From Rhodospirillaceae bacterium (GTDB taxonomy: Bacteria; Pseudomonadota; Alphaproteobacteria; GCA-2731375): DNA of 56,462 nt. Within the stretch, counting starts at the first letter, position 1. Each line of letters opens with the position of its first letter. Both the position numbers and the translations under genes were made by a program. The notes under the pieces were generated by a model. That model saw only the letters and a program-made list of their open reading frames with translations. It ran no database searches and was not told the origin of the DNA. Shown in pieces: positions 3,312 to 18,608 of this stretch. The stretch spans positions 1-56,462 of the forward strand of contig JABIRL010000162.1 of NCBI GenBank assembly GCA_018667855.1, read 5' to 3'.

Positions 3312-3313
3312 GC

Positions 3314-4600
3314 CTATTCCTCCGCCTCTTCACGCTCCACCGCGCGCCAGCCGATATCCCGGCGGCAAAAGCCATCCGGCCAATCGATGGCGTCCACGCC
3401 CTGGTAGGCCCGGGCCCGCGCCTCCCTGATATTCGAACCCTGGGCGGTAACACCCAAGACTCGGCCGCCATTGGCCAGCAAGCGGCCGTCTTCCGCCAGG
3501 ATCGTGCCGGCATGCAGCACGGAGACGCCGGCTACGGCCTCCGCCGCATCGACGCCCTTGATCCCGGTCCCCTTGGCGTAGTCGCCGGGATAGCCATTCG
3601 CCGCCATCACCACGGTGATCGCCGCCTGTTCGGACCAGGTCACTTCGTAACCTGCCAGTTGACCCTTGGCCGCCGCGATCAGGGCCGCCAGCGGGTCGCT
3701 TTGCCAGCGCGCCAGCAGAACCTGGCATTCGGGGTCGCCGAAGCGAACGTTGTATTCGATTAATTGCGGGCCCCGCTCAGTGATCATCAGGCCAGCGTAC
3801 AGCACGCCCTTGAAGGGCCGGCCGTCCTGTTCCATGGCCCGCATGGTGGGCAGGATGATCCGTTCCATGGTCTTCTGGCACATCTCGTCCGTCATCACCG
3901 GGGCCGGGGAATAGGCCCCCATGCCGCCCGTATTGGGGCCTTTGTCGCCATCGAAAACCGCCTTGTGATCCTGGGCCGTGGCCAGCGGCAGGGCGTTGCG
4001 GCCGTCACACAGGGCGAAAAAGCTGGCTTCCTCGCCGACCATGAACTGTTCCACCACGATCTCGTTGCCGGCATCGCCGAACTGGCCGCCCAGGACGTCC
4101 TCGGCCGCGGCCAGGGCTTGCTCCGTGGTTTCGCAGACGATGGCGCCCTTGCCCGCCGCCAGGCCATCCGCCTTGACCACGATGGGCGCGCCCCGGTCCT
4201 GGATATAGTCCCGCGCCGCTTCGATGTCGGTAAAGCGTTCATAGGCGGCGGTGGGAATGTTGTGTCGGCGGCAAAGCTCCTTGGTGAAGACTTTCGAACC
4301 TTCCAGGATTGCCGCCCGCGCGCTGGGACCAAAGGCCAGAATATCTTCCCGCTCCAGGCGGTCGACCAGACCGTCTACCAGCGGCACCTCGGGGCCGACG
4401 ACAACGAAATCCACTGCCTGGTCGCGGCAATAGGCGACGATGCCGTCGAAATCATCAACTCCGATCGGGACACATTCGGCCAGCCGGGCGATGCCGCCGT
4501 TACCGGGTGCGCAGCTTAACCGCGTCGCCAGCGGCGACCGCGCCACCCCCCAGCATAGCGCGTGTTCCCGCCCGCCCGAACCAATGACCAGAACATGCAT
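3314..4600 (-). CDS. purD: phosphoribosylamine-glycine ligase (GAR synthetase)
   Basis: 428 residues, standard length. It catalyses ATP + phosphoribosylamine + glycine to GAR in de novo purine synthesis. The N-terminal domain starts MHVLVIGSGGREHAL, as in all PurD. The ATP-grasp domain has VVKADGLAAGKG near residue 145, DHKAVFDGDKGPNTGGMGAY in the middle and EYNVRFGDPE near residue 290. A C-terminal domain follows. It is divergent from xseA across a 95 bp gap that must contain both promoters. The paaK-like gene follows 2 bp downstream. Nothing is missing. Confidence 0.98.
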   Translation of the reverse strand: MHVLVIGSGGREHALCWGVARSPLATRLSCAPGNGGIARLAECVPIGVDDFDGIVAYCRDQAVDFVVVGPEVPLVDGLVDRLEREDILAFGPSARAAILEGSKVFTKELCRRHNIPTAAYERFTDIEAARDYIQDRGAPIVVKADGLAAGKGAIVCETTEQALAAAEDVLGGQFGDAGNEIVVEQFMVGEEASFFALCDGRNALPLATAQDHKAVFDGDKGPNTGGMGAYSPAPVMTDEMCQKTMERIILPTMRAMEQDGRPFKGVLYAGLMITERGPQLIEYNVRFGDPECQVLLARWQSDPLAALIAAAKGQLAGYEVTWSEQAAITVVMAANGYPGDYAKGTGIKGVDAAEAVAGVSVLHAGTILAEDGRLLANGGRVLGVTAQGSNIREARARAYQGVDAIDWPDGFCRRDIGWRAVEREEAEE

Positions 4601-4695
4601 ACTACAAACGCCTCTTTGCTTTACTCAAACGCCGCCAAAATTCCACAGGTGTTGTATCATACGTCCGTGGACTGTTGATCAAGGTTTGTGCAGCA

Positions 4696-6147
4696 ATGAG
4701 CCAAAATGACACGAACGGGGGCGGCGGCGCGCCGAATTTACCGGAATACTCCGTCTCGGAAATCGCGGCGGCGGTCAAACGCACGGTGGAGGATAATTTC
4801 GGCTATGTCCGCATCCGGGGCGAGGTTTCCGGTTTTCTGGCTGCCCGTTCGGGGCATATGTATTTTTCCCTGAAAGACGACAAGGCGGTGATCGACAGCG
4901 TCGTGTGGCGCGGCACCGCCGGGAAACTGCGCTTTCAACCCGAAGATGGCTTGGAAGTGATCTGCACCGGCAAGCTGTCCACCTATGCCCCACGCTCGCG
5001 CTATCAACTGGTGGTCGAGGCGATGGAGCCGGCCGGCGTCGGCGCCTTGATGGCGCTGTTGGAGGAACGGCGACAGAAACTGGCCGCCGAAGGTTTGTTC
5101 GCCCCCGAACGCAAACAGGCCCTGCCCTATCTGCCCCGGGTGATCGGCGTTGTGACGTCGCCCACCGGGGCGGTGATTCGCGACATCCTGCACCGCCTGC
5201 GCGACCGCTTTCCCTCCCGCGTGCTGCTTTGGCCTGTTCTGGTGCAGGGCAAGGGATCGGCGGAACAGATCGCGGCGGCCATTCGGGGCTTCAATGCCAT
5301 GGAAGGTACCGCAGACATCCCCCGCCCGGATCTGTTGATCGTGGCCCGGGGCGGCGGCTCCATAGAGGATCTATGGGCTTTCAACGAAGAAGTGGTGGCG
5401 CGGGCCGCGGCGGAAAGTGAAATCCCCCTGATTTCCGCCGTTGGCCACGAAACCGACACCACGTTGATCGATTTCGTCTCCGACCGCCGGGCCCCGACGC
5501 CCACGGCGGCGGCAGAGATCGCCGTGCCCGTGCGCGCGGAATTGATCGCCAATGTGCAGGATCTGGATCGGCGCCTGGGCCTGGGCCTGCAACGGGGCTT
5601 GTCCGAGCGGCGGCGGGACCTGGACGGCTTGGCCCGTGGCCTGCGCGGCCCAAGGGAGCTGCTGGCCCTGGCCCGCCAACGCCTGGACGAGGGGGCGGAG
5701 CGCCTGCACCGGGCGCTGGCCACCTTTGGGGCCGAAAAACGCAACGGCTTGATCGCGGTGACGGCGCGGCTGCGCCCCGGCCTGGTGGCGGACCGGATCC
5801 AGAATGGGGCCCGAGGCCTGCAGGAATTCGACGGCCGCCTGCGACGCGTCGTGGAAAACCGTGTCAAGGAAAGCGGCCTGCGCCTGGCCAGCCAGGCAAA
5901 GTTGCTGGAAAGTCTTAGTTTCGAGCGGGTGTTGGACCGGGGTTATGCCATGATCCGCCAGGCGGACGGCCCGGTGGTAATGGCCGCAGCCGGAACGGGC
6001 CCTGGCGATGCCCTGGCGATAACCTTCCGTGATGGCGCAGTCGCGGTTACCGTGGACGGCGACGGCCCGACCCCGCGCCCCTCGGCCAAAACCAAACCAA
6101 AGTCTGCCGCGAAGACCAAGCCTGGAAATCAGGGATCTTTGTTTTGA
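4696..6147 (+). CDS. xseA: exodeoxyribonuclease VII large subunit
   Basis: 483 residues from the ATG at 4696 (MSQNDTN); a TTG seven codons upstream is less likely. XseA is the large subunit of the bidirectional ssDNA exonuclease VII. The N-terminal OB domain (about 15-110) contains RGEVSGF and GHMYFSLKDD. The catalytic region has GVVTSPTGAVIRDI, ARGGGSIEDLWAFNEE and GHETDTTLIDFVSDRRAPTP. A long helical region and a C-terminal YAMIRQADG segment follow, with a Lys/Pro tail. The small subunit xseB is not in the window. The stop overlaps the TTG start of the M23 gene. Confidence 0.97.
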   Translation: MSQNDTNGGGGAPNLPEYSVSEIAAAVKRTVEDNFGYVRIRGEVSGFLAARSGHMYFSLKDDKAVIDSVVWRGTAGKLRFQPEDGLEVICTGKLSTYAPRSRYQLVVEAMEPAGVGALMALLEERRQKLAAEGLFAPERKQALPYLPRVIGVVTSPTGAVIRDILHRLRDRFPSRVLLWPVLVQGKGSAEQIAAAIRGFNAMEGTADIPRPDLLIVARGGGSIEDLWAFNEEVVARAAAESEIPLISAVGHETDTTLIDFVSDRRAPTPTAAAEIAVPVRAELIANVQDLDRRLGLGLQRGLSERRRDLDGLARGLRGPRELLALARQRLDEGAERLHRALATFGAEKRNGLIAVTARLRPGLVADRIQNGARGLQEFDGRLRRVVENRVKESGLRLASQAKLLESLSFERVLDRGYAMIRQADGPVVMAAAGTGPGDALAITFRDGAVAVTVDGDGPTPRPSAKTKPKSAAKTKPGNQGSLF

Positions 6148-6970: not shown

Positions 6971-7789
6971 ATGACCGAATTACAGGAACAACAAATTCAG
7001 CGCTACGCCCGGCACATCGTGTTGCAGGAAGTGGGCGGCGTGGGACAATCCGCGTTGTTGGATGCCAAGGTGCTGGTGGTGGGCGCGGGCGGTTTAGGCT
7101 CGCCCCTGCTGATGTATCTGGCCGCCGCCGGGGTGGGCACCATCGGGGTGGTTGACGACGATATCGTCTCGCTATCGAACCTGCAACGCCAGGTCGCCCA
7201 CGGCACCCCGGATATCGGCCGGCCGAAGGTGGAAAGCGCCAAGGACCGCGCGGCGGCCCTGAACCCGGATGTCAACCTGGTGCCCCATCAGATGCGCCTG
7301 AACCCGGACAACGTCATGGATCTGTTGGCGGATTACGACATCATCGCCGACGGCTCGGACAATTTTGACACGCGGTTTCTGCTCAACGATGCCTGCTTTC
7401 TGGCCAAGAAAACCCTGGTCTCGGCGGCCGTGCTGCGGTTTGACGGTCAGCTGTCCACCTACAAAGCCTATTTGGGACCGCCCAACCCCTGCTACCGCTG
7501 TATCTTTCCCGAACCACCGCCCCCCGATTCCATCCCGTCCTGTTCCCAAGGCGGCGTTTTGGGCGCCATGGCCGGGGTCATGGGCACCATGCAGGCAACG
7601 GAAGTGATCAAGGAAATCCTAGGCATCGGTGCCAGCCTGTCGGGCCGTCTGGTGATCCACGATGCCCTGGCGGGCGAATTCCGCACCGTGCGGGTCAAAC
7701 CCGACCCGAATTGCGCCCTGTGCGGCGACAATCCAAGTATTGTTGATCTAAGACAGGCGAGCCAGGGCTTCGCCGGAACGGAAACTTAA
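6971..7789 (+). CDS. moeB: MoeB/ThiF-type sulfur-carrier adenylyltransferase
   Basis: 272 residues from the ATG at 6971. An E1-like enzyme: Rossmann motif GAGGLGSPLLMYLAAAGVG near residues 37-55, then DDDIVSLSNLQRQ with the conserved arginine. Next comes ADGSDNFDTRFLLNDAC with the adenylate-binding Asp and Arg. Two CxxC zinc pairs follow, CYRC near 179 and CALC near 246. It adenylates the C-terminal Gly-Gly of MoaD or ThiS for molybdopterin or thiamine synthesis. There is no rhodanese domain. Nine bases separate it from the M23 gene. MoeB and ThiF cannot be told apart without the partner protein. The stop shares TTAA with the convergent dehydrogenase. Confidence 0.93.
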   Translation: MTELQEQQIQRYARHIVLQEVGGVGQSALLDAKVLVVGAGGLGSPLLMYLAAAGVGTIGVVDDDIVSLSNLQRQVAHGTPDIGRPKVESAKDRAAALNPDVNLVPHQMRLNPDNVMDLLADYDIIADGSDNFDTRFLLNDACFLAKKTLVSAAVLRFDGQLSTYKAYLGPPNPCYRCIFPEPPPPDSIPSCSQGGVLGAMAGVMGTMQATEVIKEILGIGASLSGRLVIHDALAGEFRTVRVKPDPNCALCGDNPSIVDLRQASQGFAGTET

Positions 7790-8781
7790 GCCGGCAACAG
7801 GTCTTCGTCGATGATGCGGTCGGGCGGATTGTGGCCGTCGACGAAGGTGCGGATATTGATCAGCACCTTTTCACCCATGTTGATGCGCCCCTCGATGGTG
7901 GCCGAGCCCATGTGCGGCAGCAACACCACATTGCTCATGTCCAGCAGCTTTTTGTTGACGCTGGGTTCGTGTTCGAACACGTCCAGGCCGGCGCCGGCGA
8001 TGCGGCCTTCCTGCAACAGGCGCACCATGGCGTCTTCGTCGATCACCTCGCCGCGCGCGGTGTTGACGATATAACATTGCGGCTGCAGCAACTGTAGGCG
8101 CCGGGCCGAGAGCAAATGATAAGTCGCCGGCGTATGGGGACAATTGACCGAGATGATATCCATGCGGGAGAGCATTTGATCCAGGCTTTCCCAATAGGTC
8201 GCCTCTAATTCCGCCTCCGTTTCCCCATCGACCCGGTGGCGGTTGTGATAATGGATGGACAGCCCAAAGGCGCGCGCCCGCCGCGCCACGGCGGTGCCGA
8301 TCCGGCCCATGCCGATAATACCCAGCCGTTTGCCCCAGATGCGATGGCCCAGCATCCAAGTCGGGCCCCAGCCATGCCAGTCGCCGGCACGGAGCACCCG
8401 CTCCCCCTCGGTCACGCGGCGGGGCACCGACAGCATCAGCGCCATGGTCATATCGGCCGTATCCTCGGTCAATACGCCGGGGGTGTTGGTCACTGTGATG
8501 CCCCGTTCGCGGGCCGCGTGATGGTCGATGTGATCCCAACCGGTGCCGAAAGAGGCGATCAATTTCAGGCGCTCGCCCGCATGAGCGATGACGTCGGCAT
8601 CAATCTTGTCTGTCACCGTTGGCACCAGGACATCGGCGAATTTCACCGCGTTGATCAGGTCCTCGTGGCTCATGGCATCGTCGGTGACGTTCAGACGGGT
8701 GTCGAACAGCTCCATCATCCGCGTTTCCGTCACGTCCGGCAATTTGCGGGTCACGATAACCAATGGTTTGTTTTGTGACAT
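7786..8781 (-). CDS. D-isomer-specific 2-hydroxyacid dehydrogenase (glyoxylate/hydroxypyruvate reductase type)
   Basis: 331 residues from the ATG at 8781; a start 7 codons upstream is also open. NAD(P)-binding motif GIIGMGRIG at about 154-162. The catalytic Arg lies in VNTARGEVID, Glu in FEHEP and His in LPHMGSAT, matching glyoxylate/hydroxypyruvate reductases of the GyaR/GRHPR branch. Expected reaction: NAD(P)H-dependent reduction of glyoxylate or hydroxypyruvate. It is convergent with moeB, sharing four bases at the stops, and divergent from the SH3 gene across about 150 bp. The exact substrate cannot be read from sequence. Confidence 0.92.
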   Translation of the reverse strand: MSQNKPLVIVTRKLPDVTETRMMELFDTRLNVTDDAMSHEDLINAVKFADVLVPTVTDKIDADVIAHAGERLKLIASFGTGWDHIDHHAARERGITVTNTPGVLTEDTADMTMALMLSVPRRVTEGERVLRAGDWHGWGPTWMLGHRIWGKRLGIIGMGRIGTAVARRARAFGLSIHYHNRHRVDGETEAELEATYWESLDQMLSRMDIISVNCPHTPATYHLLSARRLQLLQPQCYIVNTARGEVIDEDAMVRLLQEGRIAGAGLDVFEHEPSVNKKLLDMSNVVLLPHMGSATIEGRINMGEKVLINIRTFVDGHNPPDRIIDEDLLPA

Positions 8782-8933
8782 AAAACTATCCCGGCTCGGC
8801 ATGGTTGGTGCTGAAAATCAGATCGTCCTAACGTCTCTAGCAGACTGTACGCTCCGGGACAATTGGACAAGCCTAATGACCAGGCGCGAATGCCCGCTTG
8901 ACCGGGTTCATGCGCCTTGGGCATAAGTTGATC

Positions 8934-9464
8934 ATGAAGTGGATATCCTGCCTGTTCGCCCTGCTGGTGCTTTTCCCGCCGGCCATGACGCTCGCCGACG
9001 AAGCCGCCGGAATAGCCGTCAAAAAAGCCGCGAAGCCGAAGCATCCCGGCGCCTCCGGCCTGCCCACGCCGCGCTTCGTCTCCCTGGCCTCTAAAAAGGT
9101 AAACATGCGGGCCGGGCCCGGCGTACGCTATCCCATCGCCTGGGTTTATAAGCGCCAGGGCACCCCGTTCATGGTCATGGCCGAGCATGAATACTGGCGC
9201 AAGGTGCGCGATATCAACGGCACCGAAGGCTGGATGCACCGCAGCCTGCTCTCCGGCCGGCGCACGGCGGTGCTGCGGGCCGGGATTACGGAACTGCGCC
9301 GCGCGCCGGAAGCCACGGCTCCCATCATCATGCGCGCCGAAGCCGGCGTGATCGGCAAATTGCTCGTCTGCCAAAAATCCTGGTGCCAGATGGACCTGAA
9401 CGACACCAAAGCCTGGCTGCCGCGCACGGTGATTTTCGGCGTTTTACCGAACGAGCAGTTTTAG
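8934..9464 (+). CDS. secreted bacterial SH3-like domain protein
   Basis: 176 residues from the ATG at 8934, chosen because a signal peptide (KWISCLFALLVLFPPAMTLA) begins there. The mature part contains tandem bacterial SH3-like units. The first, about 45-100, has the classical KKVNMRAGPGVRYPIAWVY with WRKVRDINGTEGWMH. The second, with VLRAGITELRRAPEATAPI and KSWCQMDLNDTKAWL, is weaker. Such proteins are periplasmic and may bind peptidoglycan. The 3' end overlaps the convergent amidase gene by four bases (TTAG). Confidence 0.88.
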   Translation: MKWISCLFALLVLFPPAMTLADEAAGIAVKKAAKPKHPGASGLPTPRFVSLASKKVNMRAGPGVRYPIAWVYKRQGTPFMVMAEHEYWRKVRDINGTEGWMHRSLLSGRRTAVLRAGITELRRAPEATAPIIMRAEAGVIGKLLVCQKSWCQMDLNDTKAWLPRTVIFGVLPNEQF

Positions 9465-10756
9465 CTTCCCGCCAACTCCACCATCGTCGCGGCCAAGACC
9501 TGGACGCCTTGTTCGAAGTCGGCCATGGCCATTTTTTCGTCCGGATTGTGGCTGCCGTCGGCGTTGCGGACCAGCAGGACCGCGGCCGGGATGCCGGCGC
9601 GGGCGAAGATGGAGGCGTCGTGGCCGACCGTGGCGAATTCCTGGCAGGGGATGGCCCGGCGGTCGGCGTTGTCATGCAGTTTGGCCCGCAGGGCGAGATC
9701 GAGCGGGGTTGGCGATGATCCCACCGCATCGCCCAGCACGAAACGGACGTTGCGGCGGCGGGCGATGTCTTCCGTCAGGGCGGCGATGGCGTCCCGGGCG
9801 CGGTCCAGGGTGTGCTGTTCGGTGCTGCCGAAGTTGAGCGAGAAATGGCATTCTCCCGGCACCTTGGTCAGGGCGTGGTGGTCCGGGTCGGTGAACAGCT
9901 TGCCGACGGTAAAGACGGCGGAGGGATCATCGCTGTCCTCGATCTCGTGCCATAGGGCCTCCAGCCGCCCCAGCAATTCCGTCACGGCCAGAACCGTGTC
10001 CTGACGTAGGCGGCGCGGCGTGGCGGCGGAATGCTGATAGGCGCCGTGGCAAACCCCGTCACCATGGCGCAGATTGCCGCGTATGGCGGTGGCCACGGCC
10101 AGGGGGGCGTCCTGTTCCACCAACAGCGGGCCCTGTTCGATATGCAGTTCCAGGAAGGCCTTGGTATTGGTGGCCGTCACGATGGGATCGCCTTGCCAGA
10201 TCTCATCAACCCTCAGGCCCTGGTCGGCCATATGGTCGGCGATGGAATGTTTGCTATCCAGGCGTACCAAATTGTCAAACTCTGACCGTTCCATAGCGCC
10301 GACAGCCAGGCGGGCGCCCACGTAGGCGATGCCGTACCAGACGCTTTCCTCGCACCGGGTACCCATGGCCGTGAGGCGGCAGCCCGGCACGATGCCGGTC
10401 CGGCGGACGGCGGCCAGGGCGATGACGGCCGCGACCGCGCCGGCTAGGCCATCGAAATTACCGCCCCGGGCGACGGAATCCAGGTGCGATCCGGATAATA
10501 TAGCGGGCGCGGTGGGATCCGAACCTTCCAGGTCGGCGTAGGCATTGCCGATGGCATCCTGCCGGGTGGCCAGGCCTTCCGCGCGGGCGGCCATGAGTAG
10601 AATATCGGCGGCGGCCTGGTCCTGCTCGCTCCAGGCGGGGCGGGTTACGCCTTCGTCATCAAGGCTGGCGGTCCTGATATCGTCGAAGATTTCCGACGCC
10701 AGGGGCATCAGGTCCGTGACGGCGGTTCGCAGGGCATCGTCCGCCACTTTGGTCAT
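9461..10756 (-). CDS. Zn-dependent amidase, hydantoinase/carbamoylase family (M20)
   Basis: 431 residues. M20-fold metallohydrolase of the N-carbamoyl-L-amino-acid hydrolase/allantoate amidohydrolase group. Metal ligands sit in SGSHLDS, GGNFDGLAGA, GTRCEES, LELHIEQGP and GSHNPDE. A lid domain in the middle begins GDGVCHGAYQHSAATP, where close relatives have an AdHAGTTP segment. The family cleaves the C-N bond of carbamoyl or acyl amino acids and ureides. The start overlaps the end of the NeuC-like gene (ATGA), so it is translationally coupled as the last gene of the NeuB/NeuC operon. This is an unusual partner for nonulosonate enzymes. A second member of the family lies at 17370-18608. Confidence 0.9.
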   Translation of the reverse strand: MTKVADDALRTAVTDLMPLASEIFDDIRTASLDDEGVTRPAWSEQDQAAADILLMAARAEGLATRQDAIGNAYADLEGSDPTAPAILSGSHLDSVARGGNFDGLAGAVAAVIALAAVRRTGIVPGCRLTAMGTRCEESVWYGIAYVGARLAVGAMERSEFDNLVRLDSKHSIADHMADQGLRVDEIWQGDPIVTATNTKAFLELHIEQGPLLVEQDAPLAVATAIRGNLRHGDGVCHGAYQHSAATPRRLRQDTVLAVTELLGRLEALWHEIEDSDDPSAVFTVGKLFTDPDHHALTKVPGECHFSLNFGSTEQHTLDRARDAIAALTEDIARRRNVRFVLGDAVGSSPTPLDLALRAKLHDNADRRAIPCQEFATVGHDASIFARAGIPAAVLLVRNADGSHNPDEKMAMADFEQGVQVLAATMVELAGS

Positions 10757-11910
10757 TCGGAACCGTAGGTCAGGCGTTTTTGTACATTGATTTCGGTCGT
10801 GGCGAGAATGTCGGCGATTTTTCGCCCGGCGCTGCCGTCACCAAATAATTTCGATTGGTCAAAGGTGCCATGGGCGATCTGGGCCCGCGCCTTGGCCTCG
10901 ATATCGGCCCGGTCATAAGCGGCATGCACAACATTTGCGCCATGTTCGCGGTCGGACTGTCGGGTGCCCACATTGACCGTCGGCGTGCCCAGATAGGCCC
11001 CTTCGCGCAGGCCGGAAGACGAATTTCCGATCAGGCAGGCCGCGTTGGCGATCAGGCGGGCATAATCCTCGGGGCTGAAGTTGCGATAGAAATGCAGCTT
11101 ACCGTCGCCAACCCGTTCCCGGTGCAGGCGCAGCCCCTTGGAAACATCGTCCGAACCCGCATCCACATTGGGCCACAGCCAGGCGGTCTGCATATCCAGG
11201 GCCAGCACGGCGGCCAGGGTTTCCTGGATCTGTTGAAAGCCCTGACCGAACTCCGTGGTCACGGGATGCTGCAGCACCACCAGATAAGGCTGGTTGGTAT
11301 CCAGGGTGGCGCCGACGCCCTTGTTGCTTTCGAACAGATCGTCGGGCAGGGAGAGATCAAGATCGGCGATCAGATCAATGGCCGGGCAGCCGGTCATATG
11401 AACCCTGACGGGCTCCTCCCCCATGCGCAGCAGATAGTCCTTGGCCAGATCAGTGGCCGGGAAATGCAGATGTGCCAGTTTGCTGACCGCATGGCGGACG
11501 CTTTCATCGATGGAACCCGTCACCTCGCCGCCCTGGGTATGGGCCACGGGGATGTTCATATAGCTCGCCGCGATGGCAGTGGCGATGGTTTCAAAGCGGT
11601 CCGCTACCGTCAGCACCACATCCGGGGCCAGATTTTCGAACTGGGTGGATAGATCCATGATCGCCATCCCGGTAGATTTCGCCATGGTGGTGGGGTTCTC
11701 CCCCTCGACAATGGAATAGACCGTTGCGGAAGGCTCGAAGCCATCGGCCCGGATGATATCCACCGCATGGCCGAACCGGTACAGCAGCGCCGAGGCGCCG
11801 ACGATGGTCTGCAACTCCAAATCGGGATGCTCCTGGATCGCGCGCATGACCGATTTGATGCGGCCATAGTTGGCCCGGCTGTTGACCACGACGCAAATTT
11901 TACGGGGCAT
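10753..11910 (-). CDS. neuC: UDP-N-acetylglucosamine 2-epimerase, hydrolysing type (NeuC/LegG-like)
   Basis: 385 residues, typical of NeuC. GT-B fold with two Rossmann halves. Diagnostic stretches are NSRANYGRIKSVM at the N-terminus, DRFETIATAIAASY, PVAHTQGGEVTGSIDESVRH near 125-145, and GNSSSGLREGAYLGTPTVN with GTRQSDREHG near 310-335. Enzymes of this type convert UDP-GlcNAc or UDP-diacetamido-sugars to free ManNAc-type sugars plus UDP, feeding NeuB. It lies 25 bp after the NeuB-like gene in transcription order. Whether the substrate is UDP-GlcNAc, a GDP-sugar or a bacillosamine derivative cannot be told here. Confidence 0.9.
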   Translation of the reverse strand: MPRKICVVVNSRANYGRIKSVMRAIQEHPDLELQTIVGASALLYRFGHAVDIIRADGFEPSATVYSIVEGENPTTMAKSTGMAIMDLSTQFENLAPDVVLTVADRFETIATAIAASYMNIPVAHTQGGEVTGSIDESVRHAVSKLAHLHFPATDLAKDYLLRMGEEPVRVHMTGCPAIDLIADLDLSLPDDLFESNKGVGATLDTNQPYLVVLQHPVTTEFGQGFQQIQETLAAVLALDMQTAWLWPNVDAGSDDVSKGLRLHRERVGDGKLHFYRNFSPEDYARLIANAACLIGNSSSGLREGAYLGTPTVNVGTRQSDREHGANVVHAAYDRADIEAKARAQIAHGTFDQSKLFGDGSAGRKIADILATTEINVQKRLTYGSE

Positions 11911-11935
11911 TATCGCAGGTCCTTATTGCACGTCA

Positions 11936-12979
11936 TTATTTTACGTCATCAGGGCGCAGCAGCCGGTCGGGCTGTACATCGTCCGCCAAGGTACGACCAA
12001 TGTATTCGTCCATCCGGGTGGCGGAAATGCCCGTGCCCGGTTTCTTGGCGGTCAGCATGTCAGCCGCCAGCACCGTGCCCTTGGCCAGGGCGCGGGTGGG
12101 CGCCAGGCTTTTGGTGAACAGGCCGCGCATGGTTCCCAACTCGTCCGCCACCACATCCTTATCCACCGGGTGAGCATCCATGGTGGCGAAGGCGGCTCGG
12201 CCATCGGCGACCTGGCGAAACTCCTCGAACGTCAGGGAAGCCGGTACATCGGGGCCGAACAGGCGTTTGTCAAAAGTTACATGCACCTCGATCATATCGG
12301 CGCCCCGGGCCAGGGCGGCCAGGGCCGGGTAGGGGCTGCCGCTGTGATCGGACAGACCCGCCGGGCAATCATGCGCGGCGCGCAGTTTGTCGATCACGTT
12401 CAGGCCCACTTGATCCAGGGGCGTGGGATAGCGCGAGGTGCATTGGAACAAACCCAAATCCACGCCCAGGGCGCGGATACCGACGGCACTTTCGGCGATT
12501 TCGGCCCACCGGCTCATGCCGGTGGAGAGCAGTATGGGTTTGCCGGTCGCCGCCATGGCCGCCATCAGGTCTGTTGATTTGTATTCGCCGGAGCCGATTT
12601 TCCAGGCCGGGTGGCCCAGGCCATCAAGCAAGTCCACCGCCGCGACGGAAAAGGCGGAGGACAGAAAAATAAGGCCTTTTTCCTTGGCATGATCGGCCAG
12701 GCCCACCCATTGTTCGGGGCTGAATTCCATGCGGTGCCAATAGTCGTAGCGGGTGGCGTCCTGTTTCGAGAACTTGACGCGGAATTCCTCGTCCAGCGTG
12801 GATTCGGCGGCCGCAATATGGGTCTGAAACTTTATGGCATCCGCGCCCGCCTCGGCGGCGGCGTCGATAAAAGCATGCGCCGTGCCCAGGCTGCCGTCAT
12901 GGGCCTGGCCGACCTCGGCAATCAACAGCGCCGGCGCGCCATCGCCAACCACGCGGTCACCAATCTTGATGGTGCTCAT
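11936..12979 (-). CDS. neuB: N-acetylneuraminate/nonulosonate synthase (NeuB-like)
   Basis: 347 residues from the ATG at 12979, which overlaps the upstream TGA; an in-frame ATG 12 bp earlier is also possible. A TIM-barrel with IAEVGQAHDGSLGTAHAFID, AGADAIKFQTH, SSAFSVAAVDLL, KIGSGEYKS, FQCTSRYPTP and GLSDHSGSPYPALAAL. A C-terminal antifreeze-like SAF domain follows at about 285-347, with LAKGTVLAADMLTAKKPGTG. It condenses a 2-acetamido hexose with phosphoenolpyruvate to give a sialic, legionaminic or related nonulosonic acid. The NeuC partner follows directly. No CMP-sugar synthetase is present in the window. Confidence 0.93.
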   Translation of the reverse strand: MSTIKIGDRVVGDGAPALLIAEVGQAHDGSLGTAHAFIDAAAEAGADAIKFQTHIAAAESTLDEEFRVKFSKQDATRYDYWHRMEFSPEQWVGLADHAKEKGLIFLSSAFSVAAVDLLDGLGHPAWKIGSGEYKSTDLMAAMAATGKPILLSTGMSRWAEIAESAVGIRALGVDLGLFQCTSRYPTPLDQVGLNVIDKLRAAHDCPAGLSDHSGSPYPALAALARGADMIEVHVTFDKRLFGPDVPASLTFEEFRQVADGRAAFATMDAHPVDKDVVADELGTMRGLFTKSLAPTRALAKGTVLAADMLTAKKPGTGISATRMDEYIGRTLADDVQPDRLLRPDDVK

Positions 12980-14379
12980 GCGGTTCTCCATTCAGGCACA
13001 TCGCCCTCACCCAAATCCCAGAACAGCCCGGCCATGATCTGCAAGCCTTCGCGCAAGACCGGCTCCAGCGCGTGTTCGTTGGGCGCATGTTGCGAACAGG
13101 CGGCATAGGAATGGGGCACCCAGATGGTGGGCAGTCCCAGGGTTTCGGCAAACACGTCGTTGGGCAGGGAGCCGCCCAGGTTGGGCAGAATGGTCGGCTC
13201 TACCCCCGTGGTTTCACGCAACGAGGCCCGAGCCCATTGCACCCAGGGATGATCAGGCAGCAGACGGGAAGCCTTCATCATGAAGCCGTCGTTTTTCTGG
13301 CCGACGGCGACGTCATGATAGCCTTCCTTGTCCAGATGGGCGCGGATCGCCGGCAGAAATGTCTTCGGGTCCCGGTCCACGGTAAAGCGGATCTGGCACC
13401 AGGCGGTAGCATTGGGCGGGATGGCATTGGCGACCTGGTCGGGATTACCGACTTTCATGGCCAGAACCTCGAACGCGTTCCAGGCGAACACCCTCTCGGC
13501 CGGCGTCAATCCCGGATGGCCCCAGTCTACTTCCACCTCTGGCCCGCCATCTCCACCCCGAACCTGAACCGCGGCCAGCACATCGCGCACTGATTGGGGG
13601 ATTGCTTCGGGGCGCAATTCGGGCAGCAGAATTTCACCTTTGGGCCCGACCAGGGTGGCCAGGGCATTGGCCATTCGGGTGCCGGCATTGGAAATCAAGC
13701 CGCCCCAGTTGCCCGAATGATGGCCGCCGTCGCGCAGATCGACGGTCAATTCGAAATTCAGCGCGCCCCGGCTGCCCATGAACAGCGTTGGTTTATCGGG
13801 CGCCAGGCGCGGCCCGTCCGAGGCCAGCAGCAGATCCGCGCGCAGTTCTTCCCTATGCGCCTCGGCGAATTCAGCCAGCCCGACCGAGCCGACTTCCTCG
13901 GACATTTCCAACAGGATCTTACAATTGAAGCCAAGGCGTTCGCGCACCGCCAGGACGGCCGCCATGGCGGCGAGATTAACCGAATGCTGGCCCTTGTTAT
14001 CGGCGGTGCCCCGCCCGTACCAGCGTTCCCCGTCCTTGACCATGGTCCAGGGGTCGCGATCATCCCGCCAATCGCCTTCAAAGCCACGCACCACATCGCC
14101 GTGGCCGTAACTGAACAAAGTGGGCAGGTTGGGGTTTTCCAGCCGTTCCGCCAAAAGAAACGGCCCGCCGCGCGGATCGGGGTTAGGATGGATCGTCACC
14201 TGGAAGCCGAGCGCTTCCAACGTTGGGGTCATTTCCTCGGCCAGATAACGGTCCAGTTCAGGGCGCAGTTCGCGCACCTGGGCGCTGGAGGCGATGGCGA
14301 CCCGGCGGGCCAGATCGTCAAAGAATGCACCACTATCGAAATGTGCCGTGGCCTGGGCAATGGCGGCGTCGCGGGTCAT
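12976..14379 (-). CDS. M20 family metallopeptidase (dipeptidase-like)
   Basis: 467 residues. M20 exopeptidase architecture with catalytic and dimerisation (lid) domains. Metal-ligand motifs are SYGHGDVVRG near 100, RWYGRGTADNKGQ near 140, LEMSEEVGS near 172, LLASDGPR, and C-terminal CSQHAPNEH. The best family match is the carboxypeptidase/dipeptidase group (ArgE/DapE/CPG2/CNDP-like). Substrates are usually dipeptides or N-acyl amino acids. Its stop overlaps the NeuB-like start by ATGA. The inverted-repeat element lies directly upstream, between this gene and the NusG-like gene. A separate promoter upstream is possible, but none is clear. Confidence 0.88.
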   Translation of the reverse strand: MTRDAAIAQATAHFDSGAFFDDLARRVAIASSAQVRELRPELDRYLAEEMTPTLEALGFQVTIHPNPDPRGGPFLLAERLENPNLPTLFSYGHGDVVRGFEGDWRDDRDPWTMVKDGERWYGRGTADNKGQHSVNLAAMAAVLAVRERLGFNCKILLEMSEEVGSVGLAEFAEAHREELRADLLLASDGPRLAPDKPTLFMGSRGALNFELTVDLRDGGHHSGNWGGLISNAGTRMANALATLVGPKGEILLPELRPEAIPQSVRDVLAAVQVRGGDGGPEVEVDWGHPGLTPAERVFAWNAFEVLAMKVGNPDQVANAIPPNATAWCQIRFTVDRDPKTFLPAIRAHLDKEGYHDVAVGQKNDGFMMKASRLLPDHPWVQWARASLRETTGVEPTILPNLGGSLPNDVFAETLGLPTIWVPHSYAACSQHAPNEHALEPVLREGLQIMAGLFWDLGEGDVPEWRTA

Positions 14380-14422
14380 GATAATTCCGGTCCTGTTTCG
14401 GTCAATTTCCGTCCGACCGTGC

Positions 14423-14697
14423 TTATACCAAGGTGCAGTGATAAAGACTCATATAGATCGTCTCAGAGGCCCCTCGGGTAGGAGTGGAACCGCCGACGAC
14501 CGGTACCGTCAAGGTTTCAGGACGCCGCCGAGGGGCCTCTGAGACGACCGAATTCGGCGCTTTACGAAGGCTTTCGGCGGTGTCGCGCGCCGCTTGTGGT
14601 ACTGGCACCCCAAATATTGCGGCGCGACACGCTCCTACCCGAAAGCCTTCGTAAAGCGTCTATATGGGTCTTTATCACCGCAACTTGGTATTAACGC
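14423..14697. repeat. nested inverted-repeat (MITE-like) element
   Basis: The 321 bp gap between two co-oriented genes is almost filled by self-complementary DNA. Outer arms at 14423-14460 and 14657-14697 are imperfect inverted repeats of about 38 bp; both ends read TACCAAG inward. Flanking TTA triplets could be a target duplication. Inside are two hairpins. One has perfect 19 bp arms at 14459-14477 and 14528-14546. The other has perfect 19 bp arms at 14558-14576 and 14640-14658, enclosing a second, imperfect pair at 14580-14593 and 14619-14630. No reading frame of note is present. It resembles a non-autonomous mobile element; an RNA role in operon control is also possible. Confidence 0.85.
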
Positions 14698-14700
14698 GTC

Positions 14701-15216
14701 TTACAGCACCCGGGCAATAGAATTCGCCGGTACCTTGACCCTGACTTCGCGCCCCAGCAGATTGAGAAGGATCACCACGCGGTCGGCATCGCCCCGGCGT
14801 TCAAACAAACCGATATGATCGGCCATGGCGCCGCTATGCAGGCGAACCTGATCACCGGGCGTCAGGGCGTTGGGGTCCACCAGTTTCACATGGCCGGCAT
14901 CATCCTCCCGCATGCGGATGGCCTGGATCACGTCGTCGGACACCGTGGAGGGACGCTCGCCGAAACTGACCAGGCTGACCACGCCGGGCGCGCTGTTGAT
15001 GGAGCGCCGGCCCGGAACCGCCGGATCAATGGCGACGAACAGATAACGCGGGAACAACGGTGTGCTGACCCAATCGGTCTTGCGGGCGTGACGGCGTTGT
15101 TTTTGGTATTGCGGCAAATAGACCTCGAAACCCCGTTCCCACAGATTGCTGCGGGCCCATTTCTCCATGCGTGTCTGGGTATAGACCGCGTACCACTGTC
15201 TTATGGGGGCGGTCAT
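14701..15216 (-). CDS. specialised NusG paralogue (RfaH/LoaP-like transcription antiterminator)
   Basis: 171 residues. The N-terminal NGN domain (about 6-110) begins RQWYAVYTQTRMEKWARSNL and contains FPRYLFVAID and GVVSLVSFGERP. A C-terminal KOW domain follows, with LTPGDQVRLHSGAMADHIG. Length and sequence fit the specialised NusG paralogues that travel with one long polysaccharide or secondary-metabolite operon and help RNA polymerase read through it. It overlaps the preceding regulator gene (ATGA). The placement at the head of the NeuB/NeuC operon suggests that this operon is its target. The housekeeping nusG, normally beside rplK, is not here. Confidence 0.9.
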   Translation of the reverse strand: MTAPIRQWYAVYTQTRMEKWARSNLWERGFEVYLPQYQKQRRHARKTDWVSTPLFPRYLFVAIDPAVPGRRSINSAPGVVSLVSFGERPSTVSDDVIQAIRMREDDAGHVKLVDPNALTPGDQVRLHSGAMADHIGLFERRGDADRVVILLNLLGREVRVKVPANSIARVL

Positions 15217-15881
15217 GGGGCGGACTCCGGGGGGTTGCTCGGCACTGAAATTTTTAACAGCGCAGGCGCTATTATCGTCTCCGGATCAAATTGGCCAGAT
15301 AGTTTTTCAAAGGTGCCTTGCGGGTCCGCCAAATCACAGATCAAAACCAGGTCATGGGCCGGCAGGGACGCCGCATCGCGGACCAGATCGACATGGCGGA
15401 ACCGGTTCGCCGTGGCGCCTTCATCGGCCACGCCGACCACTTCGATATCATGTTGAAGCGCGCACAAAAGTGCGATTTCCGCCAGCTCCCCCGCGCCCAC
15501 AAGCGCGACCCGGCGGCGGCCCGTATCGGCGGCTTCGCCCAACAAATCATCACATTGATTGCGGGCCCGGCGATAGAAGTCAAAGGAGCGAAACAAATAG
15601 TTCGCGGTCAGCCGGGATTTCTCGCCAAAACCTTTGGGCGTTAGATAGTAAGCATAACGATTCGGCGGCGTCTTGCGTACCTTAACCAGACCCATGCGCA
15701 CGCAACGCTTCAAATAGGCGTTGGTTAACCCCAGCGCGATATTCAAACGTGCCGCCAAACCCCGTTGCGACAAGCTCTCTTCGCCATCCACCGCATGCAG
15801 CATTTCCATGGTGATGCGAGCCTCACCATCTATGCCATCGGTGGATATTTCGGTTTCGTCTACGGTCTGTTCGCTGCTCAT
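15213..15881 (-). CDS. EPS-associated MarR-type winged-helix regulator
   Basis: 222 residues from the ATG at 15881; a TTG four codons upstream also exists. The N-terminal winged helix (about 25-95) has SQRGLAARLNIALGLTNAYL, then KVRKTPPNRYAYYLTPKG and EKSRLTANYLFRSFDFYR. This matches the EPS-associated MarR family found at the head of exopolysaccharide clusters. The C-terminal part (about 110-205) looks like a small nucleotide-binding Rossmann-like module (VALVGAGELAEIAL...VVGVADE), which could sense a ligand. Two perfect palindromes lie 22-61 bp upstream of the start and are probable operators. It is the first gene of the operon and overlaps the NusG-like gene. Confidence 0.85.
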   Translation of the reverse strand: MSSEQTVDETEISTDGIDGEARITMEMLHAVDGEESLSQRGLAARLNIALGLTNAYLKRCVRMGLVKVRKTPPNRYAYYLTPKGFGEKSRLTANYLFRSFDFYRRARNQCDDLLGEAADTGRRRVALVGAGELAEIALLCALQHDIEVVGVADEGATANRFRHVDLVRDAASLPAHDLVLICDLADPQGTFEKLSGQFDPETIIAPALLKISVPSNPPESAP

Positions 15882-15902
15882 TCGGGGTCCCAACCGAATC
15901 GG

Positions 15903-16169: not shown

Positions 16170-17333
16170 ATGCCGACTGTTGCCGATATCGAAAAAATGA
16201 GGGATGAAATGACGGCGTGGCGGCGGGATCTGCATGCGCACCCCGAATTGGGCTTTGAAGAGAACCGCACGGCGGATTTTGTCGCGACGAAACTGGAGGA
16301 ATTCGGCCTCCAGGTCCATCGCGGTATCGGCAAGACCGGGGTTGTCGGGGTGCTGAAGGTGGGCAATGAAACCACGGCTGTCGGCTTGCGCGCCGATATG
16401 GACGCCTTGCCCATCAGGGAGCGGAACAGCTTCGATCACCGCTCCACCAACGACGGCGTCATGCATGCGTGCGGCCATGACGGCCATAGCGCGATGTTGC
16501 TGGCGGCCGCCAAATATCTGGCTGCGACGCAGAATTTCAAGGGCCAGGTGAATTTCATCTTTCAGCCGGCGGAAGAAGGCATCGGCGGCGCCCGCGCGAT
16601 GATCGCGGATGGTCTGTTCGAACAGTTTCCCTGCGATACCATTTACGCCATGCACAACGCGCCCGGCACGCCCATCGGGACGTTCGATGCCACCGCCGGC
16701 ACCCGCACCGCGGCAGGGGCCTTTTTCGATATTGTTATTCATGGCAAGGGCTCCCATGGCGCCCACCCCCACAAAGGTATTGATCCGGTGGCCATCGCGG
16801 GTGAATTGATCGGTGCCCTGCAAACCGTGGTCTCCCGCAATCTGCCTCCGACCGCGCCGGCGGTGCTTTCAATTACGCAAATGCATGCGGGCGACGCCTA
16901 TAACGTGATCCCGGAAACCGCCCGTCTATCCGGCACCGTCAGAACCTTTTCCATGGAGGTCATGGAACAGATCCAGCGCCGCATTGAGACATTGACGAAA
17001 GGTGTTGCAGAGGGACATGAGGCATCAGCGGAGGTGGATTTTCGGATCATCTTCCACCCCGTGGTCAACGCGTCAGAGCCCGCCGCACTGGCGGGCGAAG
17101 TTTGTGAGGAACTGGTGGGTTCCGATCAGGTGCTGCGGGAGGCGCCGGCGGGAACGGGTTCGGAGGATTTTTCCTTCATGGCGGAACAGGTTCCCGGCTG
17201 TTATCTGCGCCTTGGCAATGGTGTCGACAGCATCACGGTGCACAATCACGACTATGACTTCAACGACGAAGCGCTGGTTTACGGCGCCAGCTTTTTCTCC
17301 CGCATCGTGGAACGCAGCCTGCCCCTGGAATAA
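16170..17333 (+). CDS. M20 family amidohydrolase (hippurate/N-acyl-amino-acid hydrolase type)
   Basis: 387 residues. The M20D signature is clear: WRRDLHAHPELGFEENRTAD at the N-terminus, GLRADMDALPI near 75, MHACGHDGHSAMLL near 100, and FQPAEEGIGGARAMI near 133. A lid domain follows with KGSHGAHPHKGIDPV, and a C-terminal TGSEDFSFM. Relatives hydrolyse hippurate, N-acyl-aspartate or -glutamate, or indole-acetyl amino acids in the cytoplasm. It is the first gene of a plus-strand operon, divergent from the EPS regulator, and is followed 36 bp later by a carbamoylase-type amidase. This mirrors the pair of M20 enzymes in the opposite operon. Confidence 0.93.
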   Translation: MPTVADIEKMRDEMTAWRRDLHAHPELGFEENRTADFVATKLEEFGLQVHRGIGKTGVVGVLKVGNETTAVGLRADMDALPIRERNSFDHRSTNDGVMHACGHDGHSAMLLAAAKYLAATQNFKGQVNFIFQPAEEGIGGARAMIADGLFEQFPCDTIYAMHNAPGTPIGTFDATAGTRTAAGAFFDIVIHGKGSHGAHPHKGIDPVAIAGELIGALQTVVSRNLPPTAPAVLSITQMHAGDAYNVIPETARLSGTVRTFSMEVMEQIQRRIETLTKGVAEGHEASAEVDFRIIFHPVVNASEPAALAGEVCEELVGSDQVLREAPAGTGSEDFSFMAEQVPGCYLRLGNGVDSITVHNHDYDFNDEALVYGASFFSRIVERSLPLE

Positions 17334-17369
17334 TCGGCCCGGCAAAAGATAAATAGGAGAGGTCTGATC

Positions 17370-18608
17370 ATGGTTTCGATCAATGGCGAACGGCTGTTAG
17401 GTGACTTACGCGCGCTGCGCGCCATGGGCGCGACGGGCACCGGCGTCGTGCGTCCGGCATTTTCGGAAATGGATATGACGGCCCGGCGTTGGCTGGCGGA
17501 CCGGTATTCGGATGCCGGCCTGACGGCCCAGATCGATGGCGTTGGCAATGTGCTGGGGCGCTCCCAAAATCCCGGGCCGGCGTTGCTGGTGGGCTCCCAC
17601 TCGGATACCCAGCCGACCGGCGGCTGGCTGGATGGCGCCCTGGGCGTGATTTATGGCCTGGAAGTCGCGCGCGCCCTGGCCGAGGATCCGGCGACCCGAG
17701 ATCTGGCCGTGGATGCCATATCCTGGCAGGACGAGGAGAGCCGGTTCTACGGCTGCATGGGCAGCCGCTCCTTTTGCGGTGATTTCACAGCCGAGGCGGA
17801 AGCCGACCTGCACGACAAGGACGGTGTCGCCTTGGCGGACGCGCTGGCACAGGCCGGACTGTCGGACACGCCTCGACTGGCGGCCGGTGATCACGATTAC
17901 ATTGGCTTTCTTGAAGCCCATATCGAACAGGGCCCGCATCTGGAGCAGGACGGCCGGCGCATCGGTATCGTTCAATCCATCGTCGGCCTGGGCGGCATGG
18001 TTTTCATCTTTAGCGGCCAGCAAAATCATGCCGGCACCACCATGATGGCGGGCCGCAAGGATGCCGCCACGGCTTTGTATGCGCTGGCCAACGCCATAAA
18101 CGAGGAATTCCCCAAGGTCGCCGGCGACCGCTCGGTGTGGACCATGGGCCGCGCCGTGCTGACGCCGGGTGCGCCCTCCATCGTGCCCGGTCATGGCGAG
18201 CTGGAGCTGCAGTTTCGGGACGTGGACCCGGCCGTCCTGGATCGCTTCGAGGCAGTGGCCCACCGGCTGGTGGCCGAGATCAACAGCCGGGGTGGCGCGA
18301 CGGTCGAGGCCAAACCATCCCGGGTGCGTATCCCGCCGGCCCATATGGACCCGGGCTTCCAGGAACATCTTTCCCGCGCCGCGGAAACACATGCGCCGGG
18401 CAATTGGAACGCCATGCCATCCGGTGCCTTTCACGACGCCGGCGTAGTCTGCGGCGTGATGCCCTGCGCCATGCTGTTCATCCCCTCCATCGGCGGTATC
18501 AGCCACGACTTCGCCGAAGACAGCCACGACGACGACATCGTGCTGGGCTGCCAGGTGCTGGCCAGCGGCGCGGCATCAATTGTAATAGCCGCTGCGGGCC
18601 GGCAGTAG
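17370..18608 (+). CDS. Zn-dependent hydrolase, N-carbamoyl-L-amino-acid hydrolase/allantoate amidohydrolase family
   Basis: 412 residues, preceded by the ribosome site AGGAG at 17355-17359. Metal-binding motifs are VGSHSDTQPTGGWLDGALG near residues 75-95, SWQDEESRFYG near 120, EAHIEQGPHLE near 187, and C-terminal PSIGGISHDFAED. The lid has GQQNHAGTTMMAGRKDA, the typical AGTTPM-like segment with Met-Met in place of Pro-Met. The family cleaves carbamoyl amino acids, allantoate or ureidoglycine. No purine-ring or hydantoinase genes are near, so the substrate is unknown. It is paralogous to the gene at 9461-10756, though not closely similar. Confidence 0.92.
   Translation: MVSINGERLLGDLRALRAMGATGTGVVRPAFSEMDMTARRWLADRYSDAGLTAQIDGVGNVLGRSQNPGPALLVGSHSDTQPTGGWLDGALGVIYGLEVARALAEDPATRDLAVDAISWQDEESRFYGCMGSRSFCGDFTAEAEADLHDKDGVALADALAQAGLSDTPRLAAGDHDYIGFLEAHIEQGPHLEQDGRRIGIVQSIVGLGGMVFIFSGQQNHAGTTMMAGRKDAATALYALANAINEEFPKVAGDRSVWTMGRAVLTPGAPSIVPGHGELELQFRDVDPAVLDRFEAVAHRLVAEINSRGGATVEAKPSRVRIPPAHMDPGFQEHLSRAAETHAPGNWNAMPSGAFHDAGVVCGVMPCAMLFIPSIGGISHDFAEDSHDDDIVLGCQVLASGAASIVIAAAGRQ

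Follow-up and report, generated by a model that had tools for sequence, protein, structure and literature searches.

A nonulosonate operon of a Rhodospirillaceae genus that is probably split between two loci

In the window (the whole stretch of 56,462 nucleotides that was analysed, on contig C39 of its genome), genes for a NeuB-type synthase and a NeuC-type epimerase stand between two genes for amide hydrolases, and this arrangement raises the question of whether the hydrolases act on the sugar. The original prediction was that they may, with the sugar acid, or an aminoacyl or carbamoyl derivative of it, being processed to a small molecule or a modified surface sugar. We compared the locus across 15 genomes of the family, all of them fragmented drafts, of which 11 are from the window's genus (g1), with g2 and g3 as sister genera; at the order level the sample is the same 15.

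The window operon and its genes

We found six open reading frames on the minus strand, in the order EPS-type MarR regulator, RfaH-like NusG paralogue, M20 metallohydrolase, NeuB, NeuC and M20-type carbamoylase, and the family matches confirm the genes and the order that had been predicted. The NeuB-type nonulosonate synthase (11936..12991) has a SAF domain and is over the cut-offs of both PF03102 (211 bits) and PF08666; with TIGR03569 it reaches 285 bits, which is below the equivalog cut-off of 400, and its structure matches (PDB 4ipj and 1xuu) are SiaC/N-acetylneuraminate synthase. The NeuC-type hydrolysing UDP-GlcNAc 2-epimerase (10753..11910) scores 370 bits with TIGR03568 (cut-off 236) and matches the structures PDB 4zht and 5xvs. 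The NeuB/SAF and TIGR03568 matches bear out the expectation of a nonulosonate-type pathway. The M20 metallohydrolase (12976..14379) belongs to the PRK07079 subfamily (711 bits, cut-off 330) and has Beta-Ala-His and cytosolic non-specific dipeptidases among its relatives (PDB 3dlj and 2zof). At the end of the operon there is an M20C-type amidase of the hydantoinase/carbamoylase family (9461..10756; TIGR01879, 206 bits, cut-off 204), whose structure matches (PDB 4pxe, 3n5f and 1z2l) are named ureido/carbamoyl hydrolases. Its metal-site motifs HLD, GG-FDG, EE, HIEQGP and SHN are kept in all ten genus rows; 18 of the 19 matched NCBIfam models are under their own cut-offs, and no substrate-specific model passed.

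The MarR/NusG and NeuC/carbamoylase junctions are 4-bp overlaps, and NeuB and NeuC are separated by 25 bp. M20 and NeuB overlap by 16 bp with the first ATG of NeuB as start and by 4 bp with the ATG at 12979, and the three 4-bp overlaps and one 25-bp gap reported earlier are right if this second start is taken. NusG and M20 are 321 bp apart, which had not been reported, and most of this gap is a 281-bp foldback (MITE-like) repeat (14418..14698, given without a strand) with inverted repeats and a fold z of -13.2. Matches to it are present in 11 of the 15 family genomes including its own, with up to 33 in one genome (inverted self-matches included); in its own genome they are its own copy and the two arms of that copy only. 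At the same position, locus L006 has only a short remnant-like stretch, as read by eye. The repeat is probably an insertion that lies outside the pathway.

Conservation of the operon and a second locus

M20 lies directly upstream of NeuB in all ten NeuB-bearing genomes among the 15 examined, across three genera, and the carbamoylase lies 3' of NeuC in all eight NeuB-bearing genomes of the window's genus, so the gene order is not due to chance; the contiguous order is kept in 8 of the 11 genomes of that genus. In g3 (L011/L100), there is a single cluster, with regulator, NusG, ABC exporter, M20, NeuB and NeuC as its first half and 2-hydroxyacid dehydrogenase, TPP enzyme, Gfo/Idh oxidoreductase, CMP-synthetase, sulfotransferase and deacetylase as its second. 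In g2 (L076, L091), we found the same one-cluster arrangement, over two contigs taken as neighbours, and three loci outside the family (L013, L017 and L025) have it without M20. The MarR-like regulator heads the cluster in g2, g3 and these three outside loci, and the CMP-synthetase is within the cluster in g2 and g3.

When the window's own genome was searched in six frames with PF02348 (CMP-synthetase), three matches were obtained, none of them on contig C39, so we rejected a NeuA within or beside the window operon. One match is on contig C208 beside DH2-TPP-GFO, and this second locus, with dehydrogenase, TPP, Gfo/Idh, CMP-synthetase, sulfotransferase and deacetylase genes, is homologous to the second half of the g3 cluster and has the same order. 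DH2-TPP-GFO is present in all eight NeuB-bearing genomes of the window's genus, with a CMP-synthetase directly adjoining in six, a sulfotransferase nearby in four and the deacetylase in its conserved place in two (some contigs end there). In G003, NeuA is approximately 12 kb from the TPP gene and in opposite orientation; in G007, a CMP-synthetase of the second-locus type was not found. The second-locus CMP-synthetase is below the curated equivalog cut-off. About 114 kb separate the two loci in G004, and about 91 kb in G001. We rejected a single chromosomal position of the second locus, shared by all species, at which clean excision could be tested: its flanks vary among species, except in G004/G001 and, upstream only, in G000/G008. 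The window has a 2-hydroxyacid dehydrogenase gene of its own (7786-8802), which we rejected as a pathway enzyme since it is a different, glyoxylate-reductase-like gene that is also kept at 89-91% in the three NeuB-less species of the genus; the pathway's own dehydrogenase, DH2, is on C208.

Across the 15 family genomes, the TPP gene and NeuB are present in the same ten and absent from the same five. The three NeuB-less species of the window's genus (G002, G005 and G006), in which the second locus was scored as absent by the TPP gene, form one clade, and their joint lack of NeuB and TPP therefore counts as one lineage and not as three tests. The NeuB, TPP and Gfo/Idh trees agree on g2,(g3,g1), whereas the NeuA tree disagrees and does not group the family.

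The two hydrolases and the competing readings

In contrast to the TPP gene, the hydrolases do not follow NeuB. M20 is present in all 15 family genomes, with or without NeuB, and the carbamoylase in 10 of the 11 genomes of the window's genus, including NeuB-less species. The expectation that the hydrolases are missing wherever NeuB is missing fails, since M20 and the carbamoylase are still adjacent in G002 and G005 and M20 is kept alone in G006. Elsewhere, M20 has acyl-CoA dehydrogenase/CoA-transferase genes (G013) or aminotransferases (G014) as neighbours. We rejected an ancestral M20-carbamoylase pair with later insertion of NeuB and NeuC: g2 and g3 show M20-NeuB adjacency, so loss of the two sugar genes in the G002/G005/G006 clade is simpler. 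Because the TPP gene of the second locus tracks NeuB and the hydrolases do not, we favour a split nonulosonate operon, and we consider it likely from the comparison of sequences that the window holds the first half, that the second half is elsewhere and that neither hydrolase acts on the sugar. Both M20 and the carbamoylase are probably bystanders in the operon, outside the sugar pathway.

We consider it improbable that M20, the carbamoylase or both are pathway enzymes that take off or trim an N-acyl or carbamoyl group on the nonulosonate or on the ManNAc-type sugar and so allow re-acylation. The constant position of M20 before NeuB, by overlap or near-contact in all ten NeuB-bearing genomes and within the full g3 glycan cluster, could mean real coupling; the carbamoylase is 3' of NeuC in the eight NeuB-bearing genomes of its genus, and at L072, outside the family, a gene of a different M20 amidohydrolase subfamily (48% to the window gene 16170-17333) lies approximately 3.7 kb from NeuB. 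However, besides the presence of both hydrolases in NeuB-less species, neither was found near NeuB at any of 71 loci outside the family (up to 10 kb on each side), M20 of G003 has an in-frame TGA while the NeuB and NeuC rows of the same genome are stop-free, the dN/dS of the carbamoylase is 0.17 as compared to medians of 0.096 for NeuB and 0.084 for NeuC, and the closest solved relatives are dipeptidases or ureido/carbamoyl hydrolases by name. The small-molecule pathway of the original prediction, in which NeuB, NeuC and the two hydrolases alone give an aminoacyl or carbamoyl sugar acid, fits the contiguous order in the genus; it is extremely unlikely given that the hydrolases occur without NeuB and are missing at the outside loci, and that another locus carries the second half of a nonulosonate pathway, with a TPP gene that matches NeuB in all 15 genomes. 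The prediction had allowed that the coupling would be accidental if a full neuA/glycosyltransferase cluster elsewhere accounted for the enzymes, and we do not retain it because a CMP-synthetase and further cluster genes are present at C208.

A separate cluster, NeuB2-NeuC2-DH3-NeuA, is present on contig C318 of the same genome, and the window NeuB and NeuC might be a decaying remnant, with nonulosonate made only from C318. As this reading would have it, NeuB is missing from three species of the genus and the window locus no longer has the exporter, but NeuB and NeuC are free of internal stops in all rows read (8 and 9, respectively) and are under strong purifying selection (median dN/dS of NeuB, NeuC, TPP and DH2, 0.08-0.13), and NeuB and TPP presence agree throughout the family; we regard decay as very improbable.

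Under the split operon that we prefer, an ancestral single cluster would have had the g3 gene content, from regulator, RfaH-like NusG, ABC exporter, M20, NeuB and NeuC to dehydrogenase, TPP, Gfo/Idh, CMP-synthetase, sulfotransferase and deacetylase. This cluster would have come apart in the window's genus, with NeuB and NeuC remaining behind the regulator, NusG and M20; the exporter is missing at the window position. Judging from the families, NeuC would convert UDP-GlcNAc to a ManNAc-type sugar, NeuB would condense this with PEP, and the second locus would modify the product and CMP-activate it so that it can be transferred onto a surface polymer. M20 and the carbamoylase would be amino-acid/peptide-type amide hydrolases that are operon members by position, with the sugar not their substrate. 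A more specific proposal, which we hold only tentatively and consider rather unlikely, is an undescribed, branched, CMP-activated nonulosonic acid, for which Gfo/Idh would oxidise a hydroxyl of the sugar to the ketone, the acetolactate-synthase-like TPP enzyme would use a 2-oxo acid to add a carbon branch, the 2-hydroxyacid dehydrogenase would supply or finish a hydroxyacid and the CMP-synthetase would activate the result; in this family, M20 might also trim an N-acyl group of it.

Transcription control and relation to known systems

The MarR-like winged-helix regulator (15213..15893, minus strand like the other five; 226 aa from TTG, or starting at the ATG at 15881) matches PF13412 (29.6 bits) and, under the cut-off of 88, TIGR04176 (MarR_EPS-like, 54.8 bits). 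The NusG paralogue (14701..15216) is nearer to RfaH than to NusG, with 130 bits for the RfaH model TIGR01955, slightly under its equivalog cut-off of 144.5, and with RfaH (65.0 bits) as the best solved structure as compared to 29.6 bits for the best NusG, in agreement with the prediction of a specialised NusG at the head of the operon. By homology, it is plausible that it acts as the operon's own antiterminator. Some RfaH/NusG-SP antiterminators are resident in polysaccharide operons (PMC7593976), and the window paralogue likewise stands close to the start of a polysaccharide-type operon. In contrast to those operons, this one is now short, with four structural genes (one in G006), and our search of leaders found no recruitment element: no 8- or 9-mer is common to at least three of eight second-locus leaders and at least three of 14 NusG-side leaders, and we rejected a shared NusG leader element before M20 and before the second locus.

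The system shares NeuB synthase, hydrolysing NeuC and CMP-synthetase with neuB-neuC-neuA clusters of the neuraminic/legionaminic type, but it occupies two loci with the CMP-synthetase at the second, its NeuB and CMP-synthetase are below equivalog cut-offs, and it has a 2-hydroxyacid dehydrogenase, a TPP enzyme and a Gfo/Idh protein as extra partners. These three are not known to be part of the textbook nonulosonate pathway. The two hydrolases exceed their family cut-offs (PRK07079 and TIGR01879) and keep their motifs as relatives do, but sit inside a nonulosonate operon. In Shewanella oneidensis, flagellin modification, which likely contains nonulosonic acid, needs the sfmABCDE operon (PMC3765264), in which, likewise, a NeuB-domain protein comes before a TPP-binding enzyme and a reductase; by the described gene content, on which we liken the two, its five genes are without NeuC, 2-hydroxyacid dehydrogenase, Gfo/Idh and CMP-synthetase, and its target is flagellin. 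In the literature searched, we found no description of a joint sialic acid synthase/UDP-N-acetylglucosamine 2-epimerase and N-carbamoyl/M20 gene cluster, nor of the product of a NeuB-NeuC-2-hydroxyacid dehydrogenase-TPP-Gfo/Idh-CMP-synthetase cluster, for which the one paper matched is, judging by its title and abstract, a Fusobacterium virulence survey. Within that literature, the wider cluster type appears to be uncharacterised.

This cluster type is seen in several proteobacterial groups. Taken together, these data suggest a route by which a strange-looking operon may arise: the split of a surface-sugar cluster would leave NeuB and NeuC without their activating enzyme, and unrelated neighbour genes would stay when the sugar genes go. 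The comparison also names the partner genes for joint expression.

The operon and its surroundings

On the minus strand, from 15893 to 9461, we found six consecutive genes: an EPS-type MarR-like regulator, an RfaH-like NusG, an M20 hydrolase, NeuB, NeuC and an M20C-type carbamoylase. This is the order that the original prediction had given, and the observation is confirmed; the gene overlaps that it reported also hold, provided that NeuB starts at 12979. NusG and M20 are separated by 321 bp, a feature absent from that description; most of this gap is a 281-bp foldback repeat (14418–14698; RNA fold z-score –13.2) of a MITE-like family. The repeat has matches in 11/15 family genomes, numerous per genome in some; in the own genome we found the window copy and its two arms only, and no second copy. 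Divergent from the operon, at 16170–18608 on the plus strand, are two further M20-type amide hydrolases (a TIGR01891 amidohydrolase and a second hydantoinase/carbamoylase-family protein); counting this pair, whose presence varies among relatives, about 9 kb of the window holds four M20-superfamily genes.

A nonulosonate cluster probably split between two places

The own genome is a 5.3 Mb draft in 371 contigs, with the window on contig C39. Our family sample, which is also the whole of the order in the genome collection, comprised 15 genomes. The window's genus (g1) supplies 11 of them, the own genome among these, and genera g2, g3, g4 and g5 one each. In g3, we found one cluster with the order regulator, NusG, ABC exporter, M20, NeuB, NeuC, 2-hydroxyacid dehydrogenase (DH2), TPP enzyme, Gfo/Idh, CMP-synthetase, sulfotransferase and polysaccharide deacetylase. 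In g2, the genes from the regulator through the CMP-synthetase are on two contigs, which we take as neighbours because each ends within NeuB; there is no ABC gene ahead of M20, and one follows the CMP-synthetase. In g1, the genes from DH2 onward are found at a second locus, which in the own genome is on contig C208 (locus L101), with identities to g3 of 72% (DH2), 68% (TPP), 67% (sulfotransferase) and 62% (deacetylase). In G004, where one contig holds both loci, about 114 kb separates them; in G001 the distance is about 91 kb.

DH2, TPP and Gfo/Idh are together in all eight NeuB-bearing g1 genomes; the CMP-synthetase is directly beside them in six, lies about 12 kb off in G003 and was not found in G007. 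The sulfotransferase is near this locus in 4/8 and the deacetylase in its conserved place in 2/8, some contigs ending there. The TPP gene is present in 10/15 family genomes, exactly the 10 that have NeuB (8/11 g1, plus g2 and g3). Since the three g1 species lacking both form one clade (97/97 in the M20 tree, 100/99 in the seven-row tree of the neighbouring dehydrogenase), a single lineage most simply lost two distant loci and retained M20 next door.

We compared trees of NeuB, NeuC, TPP, Gfo/Idh and NeuA (DH2 was left out), with rows for seven g1 genomes, g2, g3 and outside loci; the TPP tree was recognised by its order and row number. The order g2,(g3,g1) was found for NeuB (family clade 84/92, g3+g1 95/90), TPP (96/98, 100/98) and Gfo/Idh (93/99, 97/95). 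For NeuC, g3 and g1 are grouped (96/96) and the placement of g2 is unresolved (family clade 72/30). No family clade appears in the NeuA tree, where six g1 rows are together (100/99) and G003, g2 and g3 stand apart. The agreement of NeuB, TPP and Gfo/Idh suggests that the two halves mostly share one history, though in some species the CMP-synthetase may have been replaced. Within g1, the median dN/dS over genome pairs was 0.096 for NeuB (21 pairs), 0.084 for NeuC, 0.082 for M20, 0.099 for DH2 and 0.134 for TPP (28 pairs each), 0.145 for NusG (36 pairs) and 0.170 for the carbamoylase (45 pairs); NeuB and NeuC are maintained, with no decay.

The operon's NusG is nearer RfaH than NusG. What follows it is a long cluster in g3 and at loci L013, L017 and L025; in g1 the structural genes behind it number four, and in G006 there is one. 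No 8- or 9-mer was common to at least 3/8 second-locus and at least 3/14 NusG-side leaders. After the deacetylase on L101 are a B12-binding radical SAM protein (2222–4303, minus strand) and a protein without Pfam match (4306–5265). By tblastx among five genomes (G000, the own genome, and G001, G004, G008 and G010), a stretch about 0.5–1 kb upstream of DH2 in one species resembles one about 5 kb downstream in others, which suggests a duplicated or mobile piece; its ORF at L101 13306–13989 has no Pfam match. Contig C318 of the own genome carries a further nonulosonate cluster (L096: NeuB2, NeuC2, 2-hydroxyacid dehydrogenase, CMP-synthetase), about 35% identical to the window NeuB/NeuC.

The two hydrolases as neighbours of NeuB

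M20 is present in 15/15 family genomes. At E ≤ 1e-60 the carbamoylase is present in 11/15, namely in 10 of the 11 g1 genomes, with identities of at least 74%, and in g4, with 39%. All eight NeuB-bearing g1 genomes have the order M20, NeuB, NeuC, carbamoylase, spread over two contigs in G007. In G002 and G005, M20 adjoins the carbamoylase without NeuB/NeuC, and G006 has the regulator, NusG and M20 only. The genes around M20 in g4 encode acyl-CoA dehydrogenase, MFS and CoA-transferase proteins, and those on either side of it in g5 are two class-IV aminotransferases. M20 is in contact or near-contact with NeuB in 10/10 genomes across three genera, as a role in the nonulosonate pathway would lead one to expect; because it occurs in every family genome, is kept without NeuB and has other neighbours in g4 and g5, we regard it as independent of the nonulosonate genes, and such a role as unlikely.

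Of the 80 NeuB loci taken from the genome collection, the best 80 of 271 relatives, 9 are in the family and 71 outside. Around each we covered at most 10 kb either way, many contigs ending sooner, and counted matches from 60 bits. Near the outside NeuB genes were NeuC (66/71), CMP-synthetase of the query types (59/71), 2-hydroxyacid dehydrogenase (37/71), ABC exporter (30/71), Gfo/Idh and deacetylase (13/71 each), TPP (10/71), MarR (5/71), and NusG and sulfotransferase (4/71 each); M20 and the carbamoylase were near none of the 71. Thus, in this sample, having M20 next to NeuB is particular to the family, and having the carbamoylase there is particular to the genus. Three loci of other Alphaproteobacteria (L013, L017, L025) have eleven genes in the g3 order without M20: regulator, NusG, ABC, NeuB, NeuC, 2-hydroxyacid dehydrogenase, TPP, Gfo/Idh, CMP-synthetase, sulfotransferase and deacetylase. 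At L072, an M20 amidohydrolase from a different subfamily is a few kb from NeuB.

Among solved structures, those similar to M20 are Beta-Ala-His and cytosolic non-specific dipeptidases, and those similar to the carbamoylase are ureidoglycolate and N-carbamoyl-amino-acid hydrolases. Both retain motifs that we take to form their metal sites, and so are probably active, on amino-acid-type substrates. In G003, the M20 gene has one late in-frame TGA, from decay or assembly error; NeuB and NeuC are open there.

Proposed chemistry

What the genomes show directly is which genes are present, their order, their joint occurrence and the selection on them. From their families, NeuC would convert UDP-GlcNAc to a ManNAc-type sugar, NeuB would condense this with PEP, and the CMP-synthetase would activate the product; the second locus may modify the sugar. 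The closest solved relatives of NeuC are 4zht, a bifunctional GNE-type epimerase, and 5xvs, a diacetylbacillosamine epimerase. Those of NeuB are 4ipj and 1xuu, SiaC/N-acetylneuraminate synthase, which we take to be from N. meningitidis. Compared with solved NeuB/SiaC, the window NeuB (11936–12991) has GQAHDGS for GINHEGS and CTSRYPTP for CTNIYPTP, possibly indicating a different substrate, given the roles that we assume for these motifs. At the second locus, DH2 matches phosphoglycerate dehydrogenases, Gfo/Idh weakly matches sugar and inositol dehydrogenases, and the TPP enzyme is nearest acetolactate synthases; TPP enzymes of this sort (YerE) are known to add carbon branches to ketosugars. 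A precedent for NeuB next to a TPP enzyme is the flagellin operon sfmABCDE of Shewanella, where a nonulosonic acid is a likely component of the glycan (PMC3765264).

Taken together, the combination once read as a possible joint pathway of NeuB/NeuC and two amide hydrolases is best accounted for by a nonulosonate cluster that has been split, together with neighbouring genes. What interest it holds comes mainly from the wider cluster type, which appears uncharacterised in the literature searched.
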